Of a stretch of 10,136 bases of DNA, positions 1 to 10,136 are shown in pieces. Origin of the DNA: Clostridia bacterium. Lineage in GTDB: Bacteria; Bacillota_A; Clostridia; Christensenellales; UBA1242. The notes under the pieces are model-generated. The model saw only the letters and a list, made by a program, of their open reading frames with translations. It was not told the origin of the DNA and did not search any database. The stretch covers positions 1-10,136 of the forward strand of contig JAGBBI010000124.1 in assembly GCA_017938565.1 (NCBI GenBank), given 5' to 3'. The number at the start of each line of letters is the position of its first letter. The stretch's first letter is position 1. The translations under genes were made by a program, and so were the position numbers.

Positions 1-1863
<1,863 letters not shown>

Positions 1864-1917: not shown

Positions 1918-3012
1918 TTAGCTTTCAATTGAAATTTGTGCATTTTTAACTCTAATTTTCGAGTGATTTATTCCGCCTAAATTTTTTGAATTTGTGCTAG
2001 TTATGAATACTTGCTTTGTAGATAGATAGTCAATTAGCAGTCTTTGTCGTGTAGTATCAAGTTCACTAAAAACATCGTCTAAAATCAAAGTTGGCTCTTC
2101 ACTTTCGGTCTTTATAGTTTCCATTTCTGCAAGTTTTAACGCTAAAACAACTGAGCGCTGTTGACCTTGAGAAGCATATGGTTTTACTTCCAAGTTATTA
2201 ATAAAAAATTTCAAATCATCCCTATGGACGCCGACCGATGTATATCCTAATTCGATATCTTTTGATCTCTGAGCTTTTAATTCTTTTAAAAACTCCTCTG
2301 TTTTTTCTTCTCTTGTTTCACCTTTAAGTCCAATGTATTCGATTGTCAGTAATTCCTTTCCTCCAGACAAACGTTGCATTACTGATTTTGCATTTTCTGA
2401 AATTTTAGCCACAAAATTTGCTCTTGCTTTTGCTATTTGACTACCAACTAAAGCAAGTTGTTCATCCCATACATCTAGTTCTATATTCAAATTTGTTGAA
2501 TTTTTTCCAAATTTTAATAACCTATTTCTGCTTTGAAGAATTTTTTCATATCTATCGATTAAATCTGAATAAACCTTACTCACTTGACATATATCAATAT
2601 CAAGAAATTCACGCCTTATGTCAGGTGAGCCTTTTACAAGTTTTAATTCATCTGGTGAAAAAACGACCGAATAACAATGACTATACATATCTCTTTTATG
2701 CGTTATTTTATTCTCATTTACGTAAAACTCATTTTCACCTTCTCTATTTATAATATACTTAATTTTCTTTTTCCCAAAATTTAAAGAATAAACATCAGCT
2801 TCTATTTTTGCAAATGCTTCATTCTCATTAATACAATCAACAAGTTTAGAATTTCTGAATGATTTAAGAGTTGAAATTATATAGATTGGTTCAACCAAAT
2901 TCGTTTTGCCCTGTGCATTTTTACCAACAACGTAATTTATATTATCGTTGAAAACCACTTCTACTGAATTATAATTTCTAAAATTTGTTAGTTTTAATTT
3001 AGTTATTTTCAT
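1918..3012 (-). CDS. recF: DNA replication and repair protein RecF
   Basis: SMC-like ABC ATPase that binds at single-strand/double-strand junctions and helps RecO and RecR load RecA at gaps. The protein is 364 residues, the usual RecF length. The N-terminus MKITKLKLTNFRNY is characteristic. Walker A is GKNAQGKTN (residues 30-38), the ABC signature is SQGQQRS (281-287), and Walker B with its downstream motif is LILDDVFSELD (309-319). The motif after Walker A reads NLVEPIY where most RecF proteins have NLLEAIY, a mild variation. Its ATG at 3010-3012 follows a weak GGTGA ribosome site. In most Bacillota recF lies downstream of dnaN on the same strand; here it is divergent from dnaA and precedes gyrB, so the usual block is split and turned round. 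The S4-domain gene yaaA, often found between dnaN and recF, is not present here. Confidence 0.97.
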   Translation of the reverse strand: MKITKLKLTNFRNYNSVEVVFNDNINYVVGKNAQGKTNLVEPIYIISTLKSFRNSKLVDCINENEAFAKIEADVYSLNFGKKKIKYIINREGENEFYVNENKITHKRDMYSHCYSVVFSPDELKLVKGSPDIRREFLDIDICQVSKVYSDLIDRYEKILQSRNRLLKFGKNSTNLNIELDVWDEQLALVGSQIAKARANFVAKISENAKSVMQRLSGGKELLTIEYIGLKGETREEKTEEFLKELKAQRSKDIELGYTSVGVHRDDLKFFINNLEVKPYASQGQQRSVVLALKLAEMETIKTESEEPTLILDDVFSELDTTRQRLLIDYLSTKQVFITSTNSKNLGGINHSKIRVKNAQISIES

Positions 3013-3047
3013 TTTTCACCAAAAACACATAATTATTTATTTATTAT

Positions 3048-3076
3048 ATTTTACTAAAAAAAATATATATAATCAA
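3048..3076 (-). promoter_or_regulatory. recF promoter
   Basis: Minus-strand TTGATT, a 17-base spacer, then TAAAAT, about 36 bases upstream of the recF start. It faces away from the dnaA promoter in the same 168-bp, nearly all A/T gap. No DnaA-box-like 9-mer was seen in this gap. The AT background makes chance matches likely, so confidence is moderate. Confidence 0.55.
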
Positions 3077-3119
3077 TTATTTAATTAGAATTATTTATAT
3101 ATTATTTATTATTTAATAC

Positions 3120-3148
3120 TTGCAAAATATTTTATTATTAGTTATAAT
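3120..3148 (+). promoter_or_regulatory. dnaA promoter
   Basis: TTGCAA, a 17-base spacer, then an exact TATAAT, about 32 bases before the dnaA start codon. Expected transcription start is near 3155, giving a short leader with the AGAAGGA ribosome site. No DnaA-box-like sequence overlaps it, so DnaA autorepression at this promoter is not visible. Confidence 0.75.
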
Positions 3149-3180
3149 TAATATATAGTAAAAGAAGGATAATCCAAACA

Positions 3181-4578
3181 ATGGCAAAAAAGAAATTAGA
3201 AAAAGTTACTACAATTGATCATATTCAACTTTGGGAAGACGCAAAAGTTATTATTTCAAACAAAATAAAAACTGCGTTTACTTTTGATGTATGGATTAAA
3301 CCATTAACTCCGCTTGCCGTTACGGATAATAAGTTGATCCTTCAATCAAAAACTCTAGGGGCCCGTGGTGTTGTTGATAAAAATTATGTTGACATTATAA
3401 AAGACTCTTTAAAAGAGGTATCAAACGAAATTGACGGGTTTGAAATTGTTGTTGAAGGTGAAGAGCAATACGAAAAAACAATCAAAGATATTGAAAAACG
3501 TGAAAAAAAATCTGAAAACAGCAGAAAAAAAGTTGAAAAACCTAATTCTTATGCTTTTAACCCAAAATTTACGTTTGATAATTATGTAGTAGGTCCAACG
3601 AATGAGTTTACAGTTGCAGCTGCAAAAGCCGTTTCAGAAATGCCAGGTACAAATTATAATCCACTTTTTGTATATGGTGGTGTAGGTTTAGGTAAAACAC
3701 ATATTTTACACGCTATAGGAAATCAAATTACTGAAAACAAACCAGAACTAACGGTTGTTTATGTTACTTGCGAAGAGTTTACAAACGAATTTATTGAAAC
3801 TGTTGGTAAAAATGAACTAAGTTTAAATTCAGGATTTAGGAATAAATATCGCAATGCAGATGTTTTAATAGTAGACGACGTTCAATCAATCATTGGAAAA
3901 CCTCGTGTTCAAGAAGAGTTTTTCCATACTTTTAACGCACTTACATCTCAAAATAAGCAAATAGTTTTATCAAGTGATAGACCTCCAAAGGAAATCACCC
4001 CACTTGAAGACCGCTTAAGGTCAAGATTTGAATGGGGACTTATTACGGATATTGGAGTCCCAGAAATCGAAACACGAATAGCTATTTTAAAGAAAAAAGT
4101 TGTTCTAGATAGGCACGTAGTAGATGATGATGTTCTTGAATACATCGCTCAAGCTATGACAACAAACGTAAGAGAACTTGAAGGATACCTTTCAAGATGC
4201 GTTTTTTATGCTGGATTATTAAAAAAGCCAAAGGTTACACTTGAAGTTGCCAAAGATGCACTTAAAAACTATGTAACCATTACACAAACAACCTATGATA
4301 GCGATAAAATCATAGATAAAGTTTGCAAATATTTCGAAATAACAAAAAATCAGATTCTCGGTAAAGACCGTAAAAAAGAAATATCTTATGCAAGGCAAAT
4401 TGCAATGTACCTACTTGACGAAATGATGCAAATGCCGTATACTTCGATTGGGAAGATCTTTAATAAAGACCACGCCACAGTAATTTATTGCAAGAACAAG
4501 GTAATAAAACAACTTGAGAGCGATAAATTATTACAAGTACAGGTAAAAGATATTAAAGGGCTTCTTGAATCTAAGTAA
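3181..4578 (+). CDS. dnaA: chromosomal replication initiator DnaA, variant domain IV
   Basis: AAA+ initiator that binds DnaA boxes and melts oriC. It has 465 residues. Domain I starts around residue 14 (IQLWEDAK), after a Lys-rich N-terminal extension. Domain II is a short Lys/Glu-rich linker (about 95-125). Domain III holds Walker A GGVGLGKTH (166-174), Walker B LIVDD (229-233), sensor 1 LSSDRPP (263-269), the arginine-finger motif RLRSRFEWG (278-286) and sensor 2 NVRELEG (329-335). Domain IV (about 372-465) has the ARQIAMYL helix (404-411), but the DNA-binding signature reads F-N-K-D-H-A-T-V (427-434). The usual form is F-GGRDHTTV, so one residue is missing and two are changed. The substitution T to A lies at the position of E. 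coli T435, one of the base-contacting residues. The AGAAGGA ribosome site lies about 10 bases before the ATG, rather far. The nearby origin has matching non-standard boxes. Confidence 0.98.
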   Translation: MAKKKLEKVTTIDHIQLWEDAKVIISNKIKTAFTFDVWIKPLTPLAVTDNKLILQSKTLGARGVVDKNYVDIIKDSLKEVSNEIDGFEIVVEGEEQYEKTIKDIEKREKKSENSRKKVEKPNSYAFNPKFTFDNYVVGPTNEFTVAAAKAVSEMPGTNYNPLFVYGGVGLGKTHILHAIGNQITENKPELTVVYVTCEEFTNEFIETVGKNELSLNSGFRNKYRNADVLIVDDVQSIIGKPRVQEEFFHTFNALTSQNKQIVLSSDRPPKEITPLEDRLRSRFEWGLITDIGVPEIETRIAILKKKVVLDRHVVDDDVLEYIAQAMTTNVRELEGYLSRCVFYAGLLKKPKVTLEVAKDALKNYVTITQTTYDSDKIIDKVCKYFEITKNQILGKDRKKEISYARQIAMYLLDEMMQMPYTSIGKIFNKDHATVIYCKNKVIKQLESDKLLQVQVKDIKGLLESK

Positions 4579-4585
4579 TATCTTG

Positions 4586-4608
4586 GAGTGAGTTAAATAT
4601 AACTACTC
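4586..4608 (+). terminator. possible weak dnaA terminator hairpin
   Basis: Interrupted inverted repeat GAGT-GA-GTTA / TAAC-T-ACTC with a four-base loop, eight bases after the dnaA stop, followed by a T-rich stretch (TTTTATTGTTTT). The stem is short and broken, so it may only attenuate; dnaA and dnaN could still be partly co-transcribed. Confidence 0.35.
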
Positions 4609-4621
4609 TTGCCTTTTATTG

Positions 4622-4746
4622 TTTTAGACATTTTTCGACAATGTTTTTAACAATGTGTTAAAAAGTTTTTAAATTTTTCAACAGAGTTTTCAAATGCTGA
4701 AAGCTTTATAAATAAAGGGTTTGAAGGTGTTTTTAACTTTTCAACA
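4622..4746 (+). repeat. cluster of non-canonical DnaA-box-like 9-mers
   Basis: Five plus-strand copies of TTTT-N-R-ACA: TTTTAGACA (4622-4630), TTTTCGACA (4632-4640), TTTTTAACA (4644-4652), TTTTCAACA (4675-4683) and TTTTCAACA (4738-4746). There is one minus-strand copy, TGTTAAAAA (4656-4664). The canonical TTATCCACA is absent from all the intergenic regions inspected. The last copy sits directly before the trio array, exactly where an anchoring box belongs. DnaA binding is inferred from position and clustering. Confidence 0.7.
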
Positions 4747-4750
4747 CTCC

Positions 4751-4768
4751 CTACTATTACTATTACTA
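4751..4768 (+). promoter_or_regulatory. DnaA-trio array of the origin unwinding element
   Basis: Six in-phase trinucleotides CTA CTA TTA CTA TTA CTA on the plus strand. The complement reads 3'-GAT GAT AAT GAT AAT GAT-5', all fitting the 3'-[G/A]A[T/A]-5' DnaA-trio consensus. It follows a DnaA-like box by four bases and leads into A/T-rich DNA. In B. subtilis such trios guide DnaA filament growth along a single strand. The assignment rests on this motif and position. Confidence 0.85.
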
Positions 4769-4814
4769 ACTAACAAAAATAAAAATTAAATATATTGTAT
4801 AAGGAGACAAAAAA

Positions 4815-5915
4815 ATGAAACTGATTTGCGATGGTTTTGAACTATCTGAAGCAGTGAATACTGTTTTAAAAGCAACTGCTATCAGATCAACAAATCCAAT
4901 ACTTGAAGGAATTAAACTTAAAGCTGAAAATGATGTTTTAACATTACAAGCAACCGACCTTGAACTTAGTATCGAGAAAAAAATAGTTGCTGATGTAAAA
5001 ATTGAAGGTGAAACAGTTGTTGCAGGAAGATTTTTTGCAGAACTAATTAAAAAATTAAATAATGAGAAAATTGAAATCTCTAAGACAGATGATAATACAA
5101 TAAAATTTAAATATACGGACTCTGAAGGTTTTTTACAAACTATGCCAGTTAGTGAGTTTCCTGCTATTAAATTAATAGAGGATGCAGAATCCATTAGAAT
5201 TAAAAAGTCTGACTTTAAAGAAATTGTTAATAAAACATCATTCTCTGCGGCGTTTGATGATGCGAGGCCAGTACTTAAGGGAATCTTAAATGAAATTAAT
5301 GATGGAAAGGTTAATGCAGTAGCACTTGATGGCTACAGAATGGCAGTTTGTTCTAAGCCAATTGATTCAAAAGCTAATTTTAGTTTTATAGTTCCAGCAA
5401 GAAGTTTAACTGAAATTAATAAAATAATTGATGATAGTGATGATGAACTTGAAATCTTAATACAAAAGAATTTTATGCAAATTAGCATAGATGAAGTGAA
5501 AATTATAACAAGATTGATTGATGGAGATTTTATAAATTATAAGCAGGTTATTCCAAGTCAAGCAACAACAGTAGTTACTGTTGCAAAAAGGTTTTTGGAA
5601 GAAGCAATTGAAAGAGCAAGCCTACTTGCAAGATTAAATAAAAATAATTTAGTAACTCTCGACGTAAATGAAGACATAATGAGTGTCTCAAGCACTTCTG
5701 ACCTTGGAAATATTAGAGAAAAAATTTCTGTAAATACTAAAGGTAAGGATTTGGTTATCGCATTTAATGCAAGATATTTTAGTGAGGCTCTTAAAAATAT
5801 AACAGATGAGCACATAAATATTAATTTTGTGAGTCCAAAAGACCCTTGCACAATTACATCAAGCGATGGTGGCGATTATTTGTTCTTAATTTTGCCGGTA
5901 AGAATTGTTAATTAA
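4815..5915 (+). CDS. dnaN: DNA polymerase III sliding clamp, beta subunit
   Basis: Ring-shaped processivity clamp that tethers the replicative polymerase and binds many partner proteins through its hydrophobic cleft. The product is 366 residues, the normal length for three repeated clamp folds (about 1-120, 121-245, 246-366). Typical features are the N-terminal MKLICDGFELSEAVNTVLKA, the ATDLELSIEKKI stretch in domain 1, LDGYRMAVC in domain 2 and the C-terminal LPVRIVN, equivalent to the usual LPxRxxx tail of the peptide-binding pocket. An AAGGAG ribosome site lies eight bases before the ATG. It follows dnaA across the probable origin and ends at a strong terminator. No convincing separate promoter was found in the gap upstream, so it may rely on dnaA transcription or on a promoter hidden in the AT-rich DNA. 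Confidence 0.98.
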   Translation: MKLICDGFELSEAVNTVLKATAIRSTNPILEGIKLKAENDVLTLQATDLELSIEKKIVADVKIEGETVVAGRFFAELIKKLNNEKIEISKTDDNTIKFKYTDSEGFLQTMPVSEFPAIKLIEDAESIRIKKSDFKEIVNKTSFSAAFDDARPVLKGILNEINDGKVNAVALDGYRMAVCSKPIDSKANFSFIVPARSLTEINKIIDDSDDELEILIQKNFMQISIDEVKIITRLIDGDFINYKQVIPSQATTVVTVAKRFLEEAIERASLLARLNKNNLVTLDVNEDIMSVSSTSDLGNIREKISVNTKGKDLVIAFNARYFSEALKNITDEHININFVSPKDPCTITSSDGGDYLFLILPVRIVN

Positions 5916-5927
5916 TAAAAATTTTTT

Positions 5928-5961
5928 AAACGAACCTTGAAAATGGGTTCGTTTTTCTTTT
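5928..5961 (+). terminator. dnaN intrinsic terminator
   Basis: Perfect 9-bp stem AAACGAACC / GGTTCGTTT (5928-5936 and 5946-5954) around a 9-base loop, followed by a T run with one C. It begins 12 bases after the dnaN stop and closes the dnaA-dnaN unit; recF does not follow, unlike the usual arrangement. Confidence 0.88.
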
Positions 5962-6031
5962 ATTTAAATTAATTTAAACAAAATAATAAAATTTTTTATA
6001 TTAATTATTTTTATTTTTTAATTTAAAAATT
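5958..6031. other. 74-bp tract of nearly pure A/T
   Basis: Only one base in this tract (a C at 5979) is not A or T. It overlaps the tail of the dnaN terminator and precedes a small GC island (about 6032-6056) and a cluster of DnaA-box-like repeats. Such a tract would melt easily and could be a second unwinding element or simply non-coding spacer. The 496-bp region 5916-6411 holds no convincing gene; its other contents are listed separately. Confidence 0.5.
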
Positions 6032-6080
6032 CTGACACAGCTCGTCTGAGTGGCTTGAAAATGTTAAAATATATCAAAAT

Positions 6081-6120
6081 TGTTGAAAAGTTGAAAGTGT
6101 GTTGAAAACTTTGTTGAAAA
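6081..6120 (-). repeat. second cluster of TTTTCAACA repeats
   Basis: Three exact minus-strand copies of TTTTCAACA (seen as TGTTGAAAA at 6081-6089, 6100-6108 and 6112-6120), a shorter match GTTGAAAG at 6090-6097, and a near match TGTTAAAAT at 6062-6070. The 9-mer is the same as the one beside the DnaA-trios. All copies point the same way, with start-to-start spacing of 19 and 12. They probably bind DnaA and could form a second origin half or a titration site. Confidence 0.65.
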
Positions 6121-6167
6121 GTAATTTTTAAAAAATTGTCAAGCAAAAAAAATAAAAAATTTTAAAT

Positions 6168-6196
6168 TCGACAAATTTTGTGCAATGTGCTACAAT
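6168..6196 (+). promoter_or_regulatory. candidate promoter P1 upstream of the membrane protein gene
   Basis: TCGACA, a 17-base spacer that ends in the extended element TGC, then TACAAT. It lies just downstream of the second 9-mer cluster, so DnaA bound there could affect it. Motif match only. Confidence 0.45.
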
Positions 6197-6219
6197 TTTT
6201 AAAAGTTTAAAAAATGTAC

Positions 6220-6247
6220 TTTACTTTTTTTCGGTATTGTTTATACT
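6220..6247 (+). promoter_or_regulatory. candidate promoter P2 upstream of the membrane protein gene
   Basis: TTTACT, a 16-base spacer, then TATACT. Predicted transcription start is near 6254, at the left arm of the first leader hairpin, giving an untranslated leader of about 155 bases. Confidence 0.5.
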
Positions 6248-6250
6248 AAA

Positions 6251-6375
6251 ATTACTAAAAGCGAAATAGCGTTTTTGCTCTTAGTAATATAATTGCGTTT
6301 TTAACAACCCTGTGTGGTTGGGTGTTAAAAATTAAAATAAATAAAAATAAATTATATTTGAGTTTATTTTTATTT
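6251..6375 (+). promoter_or_regulatory. structured leader with three consecutive inverted repeats
   Basis: Hairpin 1 is ATTACTAAAAGC / GCTCTTAGTAAT (6251-6262 and 6277-6288, one mismatch). Hairpin 2 is TTTTTAACA-A-CCC / GGG-TGTTAAAAA (6298-6310 and 6320-6331, one bulged A), and its CAACC / GGTTG could pair alternatively. Hairpin 3 is a perfect 13-bp A/T repeat AAATAAAAATAAA / TTTATTTTTATTT (6339-6351 and 6363-6375). The last arm ends 20 bases before the ribosome site of the following gene. It matches no riboswitch family I can recognise. It may be a regulatory leader or an origin-associated structure; neither is shown. Confidence 0.5.
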
Positions 6376-6411
6376 GCTTTTGTATATGCTTAAATGAGGA
6401 ATTGATAGAAA

Positions 6412-7095
6412 ATGAAAACGGTTGAAGTAGGATTTAAGGAAAAAAGGAAGATTGATTTGTCTGAAATTGTACTATTTACAATTTTAGGTCTTTTGTTTGC
6501 CTTGATGACTACTATGATTGTTATGAGTTTTGTGGCAGTAGGAACTCAGACAAAAAATATATTTTCTTCTGAACTTATAAAAAATTATATTTTTATTTTA
6601 TTAACAGCTGTTGCTTTAATTTTGGTTGACATTGCTATACAAAAAGGTAGGCTTTATGCGAAAAATTGGGTATTTTCTGTAATTTACATCATAATATTTA
6701 TTCTTTTAAATTTATTAAATATATTTAATTTATATAGATATTTTGTTATTAATTTAATGGCAAATATTCTAATTGGTGCTTTTTTTACATTAATAGGCGT
6801 GTCTATTTATTACAACTACTTAAAAAATGAGAACAATAAAGTAAAGGCTAAAGCTATTATGGTTGTTTTATTTGCTTTTGTATTCACTATAGCTTGTTCC
6901 TTTTTAATGGAAGTAGTTAAATGGTTAGTTGGTATTATTTTTAATAGCGAGCCAACTACTTTTGCGAAGATTGCTTTAAATGTTATTTATTCAACTATCG
7001 GATCGGTTCTTTTGAACTTAGTTTTTTACTTATCGCTTATAGGCAAAAAGGTCGTAGTAAATGCTTGCTTAATTGATGTGTCTAGAGTTGAATAG
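6412..7095 (+). CDS. six-helix membrane protein of unknown function
   Basis: I do not recognise a family. The 227-residue product is very hydrophobic, with about six membrane segments (approximately residues 18-43, 57-76, 86-108, 112-136, 147-170 and 187-211). It has a Lys/Arg-rich N-terminus (EKRKID), which suggests a cytosolic N-terminus. There is no signal peptidase site, no catalytic motif and no ATP-binding loop. Loops between helices are short; the longest cytosolic-looking one (137-147) is Lys/Asn-rich. The start follows a GAGGA site 11 bases upstream, slightly far. The gene stands alone behind two candidate promoters and a long hairpin leader, and it ends at a strong terminator. Its position next to the origin does not by itself imply a replication role. 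A small transporter or a lineage-specific integral membrane protein are both possible. Confidence 0.85.
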   Translation: MKTVEVGFKEKRKIDLSEIVLFTILGLLFALMTTMIVMSFVAVGTQTKNIFSSELIKNYIFILLTAVALILVDIAIQKGRLYAKNWVFSVIYIIIFILLNLLNIFNLYRYFVINLMANILIGAFFTLIGVSIYYNYLKNENNKVKAKAIMVVLFAFVFTIACSFLMEVVKWLVGIIFNSEPTTFAKIALNVIYSTIGSVLLNLVFYLSLIGKKVVVNACLIDVSRVE

Positions 7096-7135
7096 TTGCA
7101 ATTGCTAGAGTTAATTGTGGCTTTTGAAGTATTTT

Positions 7136-7181
7136 TGAGTTTTTAACAAGTTTTCACCATCTTGTTAAAAACTCATTTTTG
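7136..7181 (+). terminator. strong intrinsic terminator after the membrane protein gene
   Basis: Perfect 15-bp stem (7136-7150 and 7161-7175) built around TGAGTTTTTAACAAG, with a 10-base loop, followed by TTTTT. It begins 40 bases after the stop codon. The stem contains the TTTTTAACA / TGTTAAAAA core also present in two other hairpins of this window. Confidence 0.88.
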
Positions 7182-7513: not shown

Positions 7514-7912
7514 TTACATAGTAAGCTCATCATCTGAATTTTCTTGTGTAATTGGTGATTTAGTCTGTATTGATAATTGTGTAAGTTCATGGCCTTGTGT
7601 TGAGCTTATCTCGGTTGCACTTTGTTTATAAGCTTTTAACAATTCATCATCACTTGCACAAAATCTTAATGGAGTTTTTGGTCTTAAACTTTCTAGGTAT
7701 TCTTGTTTTAGATTGGCTACGCTTTGTTTGGATTTATAGTAATTACTAATAAACAAAATTAATAAAGTAGTTACTCCACTTAATGAAATTAATATTGGTA
7801 TTAATAGTGTCATTATGCTAATATTCGTAAGTTCTAGTACTATAAACTCAATTATTAAAGTTAGCCAAAAAAACACGATTAACCCAGAAATTACTCTGGT
7901 GTTTTTGAACAT
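7514..7912 (-). CDS. small two-helix membrane protein of unknown function
   Basis: No family recognised. The 132-residue product has two adjacent membrane helices (about 7-28 and 32-57) with a short turn between them. A polar tail of about 75 residues follows, rich in Ser, Thr, Gln and Glu, and probably cytosolic because both flanks carry positive charge (FKNTR before, YYKSK after). The tail holds the pentapeptide SDDEL twice, at about 87-91 and at the very C-terminus (126-130). The ATG follows an AGGGAAGATG ribosome site. The gene is monocistronic, with a perfect consensus sigma-A promoter and a strong terminator, which argues it is a real, probably well-expressed gene. It is the only gene on this strand right of the origin, opposite to its neighbours. 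Confidence 0.8.
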   Translation of the reverse strand: MFKNTRVISGLIVFFWLTLIIEFIVLELTNISIMTLLIPILISLSGVTTLLILFISNYYKSKQSVANLKQEYLESLRPKTPLRFCASDDELLKAYKQSATEISSTQGHELTQLSIQTKSPITQENSDDELTM

Positions 7913-8482: not shown

Positions 8483-9250
8483 ATGAGGTTCTTATGTCTT
8501 AATGCAAAACCTTTTAAAATTATTTTTTCACTTGCTATAGTTGCTATAATTGCATCAACAGCGGTTTACAAGTCTTCATCTGCAAGTGTTTATAATGGTT
8601 ATGCCGAAAGAAAGTTGCCTATTTATGGTGTGCAAACTGAAAAGAAAAACATTGCTATAACTTTTGACGCCGCATATGGAAGTGAAGAAACGCTAAAGAT
8701 TATTGATATATTAAAACAAAAAAATGTAACAGCGACCTTTTTCTTGGTGGGATTTTGGGTTGAAAAGTATCCAGAACTTGTTAAAACTTTAGATGAAAGC
8801 GGGATTGAAATTGGTACTCATTCCAATACTCATCCGTACATGTCTAAATTGAGTTCGGCTCAAATGCAAGCAGAATTATCTACGTCTATGGAACTTATTA
8901 AAAATATCACTGGTAAAGAAGTTTCTCTATTTAGGCCGCCTTATGGCGATTATAATGATACATTGATAAGTGTTGCTGATGAACTTAACTTAAAAACAAT
9001 TCAGTGGAGTGTTGATTCGCTTGATTGGAAGGGTTTGACAACATCACAAATGATGGCAAGGATTACCCCAAATGTGGAGAATGGTAGTATTATTTTATTT
9101 CATAATAATTCAGACCATATTGTTGAAGCACTGCCGGTAATAATTGATACACTACTTGAACAAGGTTACTCGCTTGTACATGTTTCAGATTTAATATATA
9201 AAGACAATTTCACAATTAATAACAATGGAATACAAATTAAAAATAATTAA
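8483..9250 (+). CDS. pdaB: polysaccharide deacetylase, PdaB-like sporulation type
   Basis: Carbohydrate esterase family 4 (NodB fold), predicted to act outside the membrane or in the forespore cortex on peptidoglycan-like sugars. The 255-residue protein starts with a basic stretch and one hydrophobic helix (about 12-29), a signal anchor. Motif 1 is TFDAAYG (60-66), where classic enzymes have TFDDG; the second Asp, normally a metal ligand, is Ala, as in PdaB proteins I recall. Motif 2 HSNTH (113-117) keeps the His pair, motif 3 is RPPYG (151-155), motif 4 DSLDW (178-182) and motif 5 LFH (205-207). The C-terminal LIYKDNFTINNNG segment is typical of the clostridial PdaB group. A GAGGAG site lies 12 bases before the ATG. 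It leads a two-gene unit with the SSB-like gene 20 bases downstream. No reliable promoter was identified in the upstream 177 bp; a sporulation sigma factor could be used. Confidence 0.88.
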   Translation: MRFLCLNAKPFKIIFSLAIVAIIASTAVYKSSSASVYNGYAERKLPIYGVQTEKKNIAITFDAAYGSEETLKIIDILKQKNVTATFFLVGFWVEKYPELVKTLDESGIEIGTHSNTHPYMSKLSSAQMQAELSTSMELIKNITGKEVSLFRPPYGDYNDTLISVADELNLKTIQWSVDSLDWKGLTTSQMMARITPNVENGSIILFHNNSDHIVEALPVIIDTLLEQGYSLVHVSDLIYKDNFTINNNGIQIKNN

Positions 9251-9952: not shown

Positions 9953-10136
9953 AAGTGTATTATATGTTAAAATCAATGATTGAAAGTAGTAGATGTATTT
10001 TATTTATTCAGCGAGTCGTTCGGCGGTGTGAGGTAACGATATAAAGGATACATTGAATGGATTCAGGAGATGCAGCATGAATTTTAGTAGTGTGAGCCGT
10101 TTGTCTTACGTTATAAAGACAGGATATTTTAGTATC
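9953..10136 (+). promoter_or_regulatory. T-box riboswitch leader, likely Trp-specific, 3' end outside the window
   Basis: A T-box leader senses uncharged tRNA through a specifier codon and an antiterminator. Conserved blocks are present in the right order: the kink-turn/specifier-loop 5' strand GATTGAAAGTAGTAGATG (9978-9995) and the AG-bulge block CAGCGAGTCG (10009-10018) followed by GGTGTGAG (10025-10032). Then come the specifier region GAA-TGG-A (10055-10061), CAGGAGATG (10064-10072), the stem II signature TGAA...AGTAG (10078-10090), and GCCGTTTGTC...ACGTTA (10097-10113) with a 6-bp stem TGTCTT / AAGACA. Outer pairing ATGTAT / ATACAT (9993-9998 and 10048-10053) and inner TCGTT / AACGA (10016-10020 and 10035-10039) support stem I. 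The antiterminator with its T-box proper and the regulated gene lie past the end. UGG would mean Trp; a one-base shifted reading, GGA (Gly), is less likely because a purine normally follows the specifier. Confidence 0.88.

Follow-up and report, generated by a model that had tools for sequence, protein, structure and literature searches.

AT-rich DnaA boxes, DnaA-trios and a changed DnaA recognition helix at the putative replication origin of an uncultured Clostridia lineage

The dnaA-dnaN locus and its AT-rich repeats

The stretch of DNA analysed here (the window) comprises 10,136 bases of contig JAGBBI010000124.1 of a Clostridia bacterium, at the start of which a partial gyrB and recF lie on the minus strand and are followed by dnaA and dnaN on the plus strand. 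The element in question is the gap between the latter two genes (4579-4814), a putative oriC core on the grounds of a box cluster that exceeds shuffled sequence and of a run of DnaA-trios. The dnaA gene (3181-4578, plus strand; 465 amino acids, recognition helix KDHATVIY) was assigned by PF00308, PF08299, PF11638 and TIGR00362 and by alignment to 1j1v and 3pvp, and dnaN (4815-5915, plus strand) by Pfam and TIGR00663. The switch of gene strand and the cumulative GC-skew minimum at about 3000-3250 fit an origin at dnaA, the skew being seen in a 10-kb view only and confounded by gene orientation.

A first-pass annotation, made from the letters alone, had proposed an origin with a non-standard DnaA box, TTTTCAACA, occurring in five exact copies around dnaN. 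All five copies were recovered, two in the gap on the plus strand (4675-4683 and 4738-4746) and three after dnaN on the minus strand (6081-6089, 6100-6108 and 6112-6120), and each is a predicted DnaA box. Counting both strands of the window, exact TTTTCAACA occurs six times against 0.58 expected, a count reached in none of 200 shuffles, and the excess is local: five copies against 0.14 expected in 4622-6120, two against 0.017 in the dnaA-dnaN gap and three against 0.077 after dnaN (5916-6411), each reached in none of 2000 shuffles. Since the 9-mer was chosen post hoc from this same sequence, these figures are not pre-registered probabilities. The wider pattern TTTTN[AG]ACA is found six times in the gap, with 0.25 expected. 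Additionally, the 17-mer that ends in TTTTCAACA is present twice in the gap (4667-4683 and 4730-4746), the two copies being 88% alike. The E. coli-type box with C at position 6 (TTWTNCACA, searched as TT[AT]TNCACA) was found nowhere in the window, and the absence of a canonical intergenic box, as first described, extends to the whole window, where TT[AT]TCCACA has no copy and the nearest form is a single TTCTCCACA at 9073, in a coding region.

The copy at 4738 is followed by the arrangement expected of a basal unwinding system. It is overlapped by one base by TTTTTAACT (4730-4738, plus strand), which starts 8 nt before it and is probably the weak far box of a tandem pair, since the same register is seen in relatives; the spacer CTCC (4747-4750) and the trios CTA CTA TTA CTA TTA CTA (4751-4768) come next, all on the plus strand. 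Thus, six trios begin 4 nt after the 4738 box, the criterion in the literature being at least three within 16 nt of a box (PMC8287927). The order of box, box, short spacer and DnaA-trios is that of B. subtilis and was predicted in 1755 of 2070 origins (PMC8287927).

For comparison, a set of gaps was assembled from loci with dnaN detected downstream of dnaA, 81 in number apart from that of the window and mainly from Clostridia and Bacilli with some other phyla. L066, L074 and L075 (no DnaA frame by motif), L078 (a 34-base gap) and loci without an adjacent dnaN are absent from it, and its members are not independent, since close relatives such as L001 and L013 are included and the shuffles are uncorrected for kinship. 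A trio run scoring at least 4 was present in 62 of the 82 gaps, window included. Boxes before the trios were tallied in the 59 gaps whose trio score reached 5, the other 23 being left out. In 52 of the 59, a 9-mer ending in ACA precedes the trios by 20-24 nt, and in 44, the window among them, one does so by 12-15 nt; the window's own boxes start 21 and 13 nt before the trios and keep this register. The first-pass annotation had rested its case on the clustering of TTTTCAACA and on its place beside the trios, and this argument is borne out by the comparison with shuffles, by the 4-nt distance and by the register common to relatives.

The other repeats of the gap are weaker candidates. TTTTAGACA (4622-4630), TTTTCGACA (4632-4640) and TTTTTAACA (4644-4652), all on the plus strand, are located where the earlier annotation had placed them, and TTTTTAACA forms an inverted repeat with a minus-strand partner arm at 4656-4664 that it had not recorded (9 pairs, loop 3; not better than shuffles, z -0.39). 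Their standing as boxes is weaker than had been claimed, because the G6 variants TTTTAGACA and TTTTCGACA are absent from all 81 other gaps and TTTTTAACA is not enriched there (2 against 2.6 expected).

These repeats also raise the question of whether the cluster consists of terminator arms, promoter elements or the sites of another regulator instead of DnaA boxes. Pairs of TTTTTAACA do sit in hairpins, and in the fold of 4579-4700 (z -1.59 as a whole) the TTTTCAACA at 4675 is partly paired with the 4656 stretch. Moreover, TTTTCGACA contains TTCGACA, which resembles a Spo0A box, so an overlap of site types is a possible alternative reading of it. However, the folds around 4738 (z 0.46) and, on both strands, around 6081-6120 (z 0.17 and 1.09) are not better than shuffles, TTTTCAACA is enriched on either side of dnaN and one copy adjoins the trios; this explanation is therefore regarded as very improbable for the repeats as a whole. 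Two further TTTTTAACA pairs, 6298/6323 and 7140/7163, were ruled out as DnaA boxes, being arms of hairpins (6290-6340, z -2.27; 7130-7180, z -8.79), of which the one at 7130-7180 is terminator-like. Hairpin arms that carry TTTTTAACA and its complement can mimic DnaA boxes in motif scans.

The three minus-strand TTTTCAACA copies after dnaN form a second predicted cluster that spans 40 bases (6081-6120), the folds given above for its two strands being those of 6060-6140. Five strict box matches occur in the 500 bases after dnaN, two of which are the hairpin arms at 6298 and 6323; at least two such matches were seen in 6 of 72 loci, window included. No box was found between recF and dnaA in the window. 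Upstream of dnaA, 14 of 20 Christensenellales-type loci have no box, five have one and one has two, and among 122 loci (window and repeat fetches included, the edge being approximate) 53 have none and 59 at least two. A bipartite origin with dnaN as the spacer, or a titration site, may account for the second cluster, either of which would fit its arrangement.

Adenine at box position 6 in other origins

The first-pass annotation had described the replacement of C at position 6 (C6) as unusual, and the gap set does not bear this out for adenine. Among TTNTNNACA sites in the 81 gaps, 195 have C6, 85 have A6, 16 have T6 and 14 have G6. When position 3 is restricted to A, T or G, C6 is observed 192 times against 5.7 in shuffles and A6 84 times against 13.8 (maximum of 27 in 200 shuffles), G6 being found 14 times against 4.0 and T6 16 times against 12.8. 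The form TTGTGGACA, which overlaps TTGTCCACA on the opposite strand, makes up nine of the 14 G6 sites. From these enrichments and this overlap, two classes are real, C6 and A6; T6 does not form one, and for G6 this is doubtful. A6 is thus the second commonest box class in the other gaps and a regular class in this chiefly Firmicutes set, not an exception. As for individual forms, TTATCAACA has 27 copies against 0.5 expected, TTATTAACA 23 against 1.7 and TTTTCAACA itself 4 against 0.9.

The same class is found before the trios. In the 59 gaps tallied, the best box there is C6 in 36 and imperfect in 12, and in the remaining 11, which are the window and ten others, it is A6. The ten other loci have this A6 box at the far place (18-23 nt), and the window has it at the near one (13 nt). 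Counting the near place by itself, 36 gaps have C6, seven A6 (the window, L010, L012, L021, L022, L033 and L076), one T6 and 15 no ACA. Exact TTTTCAACA occupies the far place in L010, a Tissierellales metagenome-assembled genome with the helix GGRDHSTV, and in L007, a Clostridia metagenome-assembled genome with GGRDHTTV. Residue 435 of DnaA (E. coli numbering) is T in eight of the ten other A6 loci, S in L010 and G in L050. Of the 61 loci that have three or more TTNTNNACA sites, the window being one of them, four others, L007, L010, L033 and L050, also lack C6 sites.

These observations bear on a plain explanation, in which the specificity of DnaA is normal and tolerated changes of C6 to A6 and of A3 to T3 accumulated under AT pressure. 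In the 59 loci with at least three sites, the C6 fraction rises with GC content (Spearman 0.35, p 0.007, the loci not being independent), and A6 boxes are, as seen above, common in the 81 gaps. However, T at position 3 (T3) does not track GC (Spearman -0.03), C6 makes up half or more of the sites in 17 of the 28 loci with GC of at most 0.33 (a set that includes the window), and the DnaA helix of the window's clade, described below, is not the usual one. Such drift is considered to come near an even chance, falling a little short of it.

The Thermotoga box is a 12-mer, AAACCTACCACC. A review reports that T. maritima, alone among analysed origins, exceeds two mismatches from TTATCCACA (PMC4285127); TTTTCAACA has two mismatches from TTATCCACA and so lies within the known range of boxes. 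The same review gives the M. tuberculosis box as TTGTCCACA (PMC4285127 Table 1). A Mollicute consensus, TT(A/T)TC(C/A)ACA, has TTTTCAACA as one of its four forms (PMC3322544, citing Cordova et al. 2002) and thus includes A6; the five TTTTCAACA copies around dnaN match it and TTTTAGACA, TTTTCGACA and TTTTTAACA do not. TTTTCAACA was also noted in two phytoplasmas, but within genes, and its role there was doubted (PMC3322544). Two putative TTATTAACA boxes were described upstream of dnaA in M. hominis (PMC2751442), and TTATCAACA is the box predicted for the linear chromosome of Cyanothece 51142 (PMC4674748). Within the collection of papers searched, none joins Christensenell- names with "DnaA box", and none joins "DnaA box" with TTTTCAACA, TTWTCMACA or TTWTCAACA; the latter result has little weight, since the search missed the hyphenated spelling used in PMC3322544.

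The recognition helix of the DnaA clade

The window protein is a DnaA by its domains (TIGR00362 at 478 bits against a cut-off of 344, with the AAA+, HTH domain IV and N-terminal domains all found), and it departs from the usual residues of DnaA specificity. Threonine 435 reportedly confers sequence-specific binding, to judge from the title of a 1997 paper. In E. coli, domain IV contacts bases through residues 399, 423, 432-435 and 438-439 (PMC5043019 section 14), and R399, P423, D433, H434, T435 and H439 are listed as common to C. difficile, other Firmicutes and E. coli (PMC7561715). Alignment to 1j1v and 3pvp showed that the window DnaA keeps R399, D433 and H434 and carries T423, K432, A435 and Y439, so that three of the six listed residues differ; additionally, one residue is missing from the loop that precedes helix 5.

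These changes are not confined to the window. Among the best 120 of 8000 scored proteins, the first 38 (P0001-P0038) range in identity to the window DnaA from 95% (P0001) to 63% (P0037), and P0014, at 72%, is named Christensenellales. In trees, the window and P0001-P0112, drawn from these 120, form one clade of 113 members with support 1.0, and the node joining it to Christensenellales-type loci has support 0.998, or 0.861 with more loci and a protein subset. Of the 112 clade members aligned, 110 have A435, 112 Y439, 111 K432 and 112 the short loop, whereas among 115 others T435 is found in 94, H439 in 98, R432 in 105 and the long loop in 113. On these counts, a changed recognition helix is close to fixation in the clade as listed, and a link between this change and that of the box is possible.

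Such a link would mean that a joint change affected the helix (A435, Y439, K432 and the short loop) and the box (T3, no C6) and that TTATCCACA is no longer preferred. It would agree with the near fixation of all four DnaA changes combined in the clade as opposed to the usual residues in the others, with the place of the changed residues among the base-contacting positions of E. coli (PMC5043019 section 14), and with the box set of the one readable clade origin, which departs furthest among the 59 loci with at least three sites and is the sole one that lacks C6 and has T3 in every site; L022 has T3 in all sites and keeps C6. However, several loci part the two features from one another. L007, L010, L033 and L050 have no C6 sites despite the usual longer loop and T, S, T and G, respectively, at residue 435, and Christensenellales-type relatives such as L019 and L027 are also without P423 and retain C6 boxes. 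The idea that A435 alone leads to the loss of C6 is weakened or rejected by L058, which has A435 and yet three C6 sites of four. In the same way, the short loop or Y439 as the cause is weakened or rejected by 3pvp, which has both and whose chain we take to be the DnaA of M. tuberculosis, a species with the box TTGTCCACA. Considering also that a single clade origin could be read, a joint change of helix and box is viewed as doubtful. L058 is a Lachnoclostridium DnaA with A435 followed by S436, and C6 boxes are retained in its gap.

The number of clade origins stays at one because the sampled searches gave no further clade DNA. None was seen in GTDB contigs (best 80 of at least 592 stretches, at most 48% identity), in an order sample of 396 genomes (best 48%, helices read for 30 loci) or in the same order sample with P0052 as the query at an expectation value (E) of 1e-135, where the helices of all nine matches were read and none belonged to the clade. 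The same was true of class samples of 391 genomes (E 1e-125) and 380 genomes (E 1e-143; largely the same draw), of a phylum sample of 388 genomes (E 1e-143), of the family of G249 (18 genomes) or G228 (15 genomes; evidently the same family), of the family of G084 (4 genomes) and of viral contigs. The best new relatives, L122-L124, are 51-52% identical to P0052 and have the usual helix. The dnaA of G207 (L126) has a short loop, FGKDHTTVIH, along with T435 and H439, and is possibly an intermediate; no TTNTNNACA site was found in the 420 bases after it.

The more far-reaching form of this link, a clade-wide switch of DnaA specificity, would have the A435/Y439/K432/short-loop helix read TTTTNRACA and disfavour TTATCCACA, with the strong box beside the trios and with dnaN, not dnaA, between the box clusters. 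Judged from the sequences compared here, it is unlikely. If it were true, the clade would have an origin and an initiator partly orthogonal to their counterparts in other Firmicutes. The clade offers a natural set of changed helices for relating residues such as 435 and 439 to the sequence of the box.

The origin as a whole and its known counterparts

The gap between dnaA and dnaN is very probably an oriC with working AT-rich DnaA boxes of a known class. As best explained, it would be the site at which an uncultured, low-GC member of the Clostridia, related to Christensenellales, starts replication, and domain IV of its DnaA is predicted to bind TTTTCAACA there. The weak far and strong near boxes of the tandem pair at 4730-4746 would seat DnaA beside CTCC and the trios, and the DnaA filament would grow onto the trios and open the AT-rich stretch before dnaN. 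The inverted three-box cluster after dnaN would then be a second binding region, presumably serving either for titration or as a partner in looping, with dnaN bracketed between the two regions, and the box would belong to the A6 class of many Firmicutes and Mollicutes, here also with T at position 3. Taken as a whole, from the origin and its TTTTCAACA boxes through the tandem pair and trios to the second binding region, this explanation is held to be quite likely on the strength of sequence comparison. From the first-pass proposal, the origin with TTTTCAACA as its main predicted box is retained, given the cluster, the trios and the register, and the rarity of A in place of C6 is abandoned.

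Some findings weigh against this reading. The sixth exact TTTTCAACA copy, already pointed out in the first-pass annotation, lies inside gyrB (671-679, plus strand). The far box of the pair is usually, though not universally, the one closer to consensus, and in the window the near TTTTCAACA exceeds the far TTTTTAACT; the better-matching box is the far one in 47 of the 59 gaps, neither in 8 and the near one in 4, including the window. Since the upstream box is required for strand separation in B. subtilis (PMC8287927), the order of strengths in the window is a departure. Finally, clade DNA was found nowhere in the searches described above, which were sampled and run at strict E and thus do not imply absence from the collections.

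Compared with known systems, the proposed origin shares with the Mollicute box (PMC3322544) the presence of TTTTCAACA among its forms, low-GC genomes and boxes beside dnaA, but it has no C6 form, its Clostridia DnaA has a changed helix and its G6 variants are outside the consensus. With the basal unwinding system of B. subtilis and others (PMC8287927) it shares tandem boxes, a short spacer and trios between dnaA and dnaN, whereas its box is two positions off TTATCCACA and its strong box holds the near place instead of the far one. The bipartite oriC of C. difficile (PMC7561715) likewise has trios in the dnaA-dnaN gap, unwinding having been shown there in C. difficile; unlike it, the window has no recF-dnaA box, has its second cluster after dnaN and differs at half of the listed contact residues. 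In Epsilonproteobacteria, with the TTCAC core (PMC5043019 section 14), differences from E. coli extend to both the box and the helix-5 residues, as in the window, but those boxes have an invariant T at position 5 and retain C6, which the window has lost. The boxes of Cyanothece 51142, TTATCAACA (PMC4674748), and M. hominis, TTATTAACA (PMC2751442), have A6 as in the window, but with A3. The default box of Ori-Finder 2022 is TTATCCACA, with lineage or user motifs as an option (PMC10225481), and so origins like that of the window could score low by default.

Downstream of the second TTTTCAACA group and around it, the window holds several minor features. A terminator-like hairpin follows dnaN at 5928-5954 on the plus strand (z -3.20 for 5916-5970). 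The region 3' of dnaN encodes open reading frames of 227 and 132 amino acids, one of 81 amino acids, a PdaB-like polysaccharide deacetylase, which matches TIGR02764 below its cut-off, and a protein with an SSB domain. The two origin-adjoining frames, at 6412-7095 (227 amino acids) and 7514-7912 (132 amino acids), are without a Pfam family. No match to an RNA family attained its gathering score. Near the window end, at 9967-10127 on the plus strand, a match to the T-box leader (RF00230) was obtained with 70.4 bits and E 1.2e-15, below the gathering score of 93.

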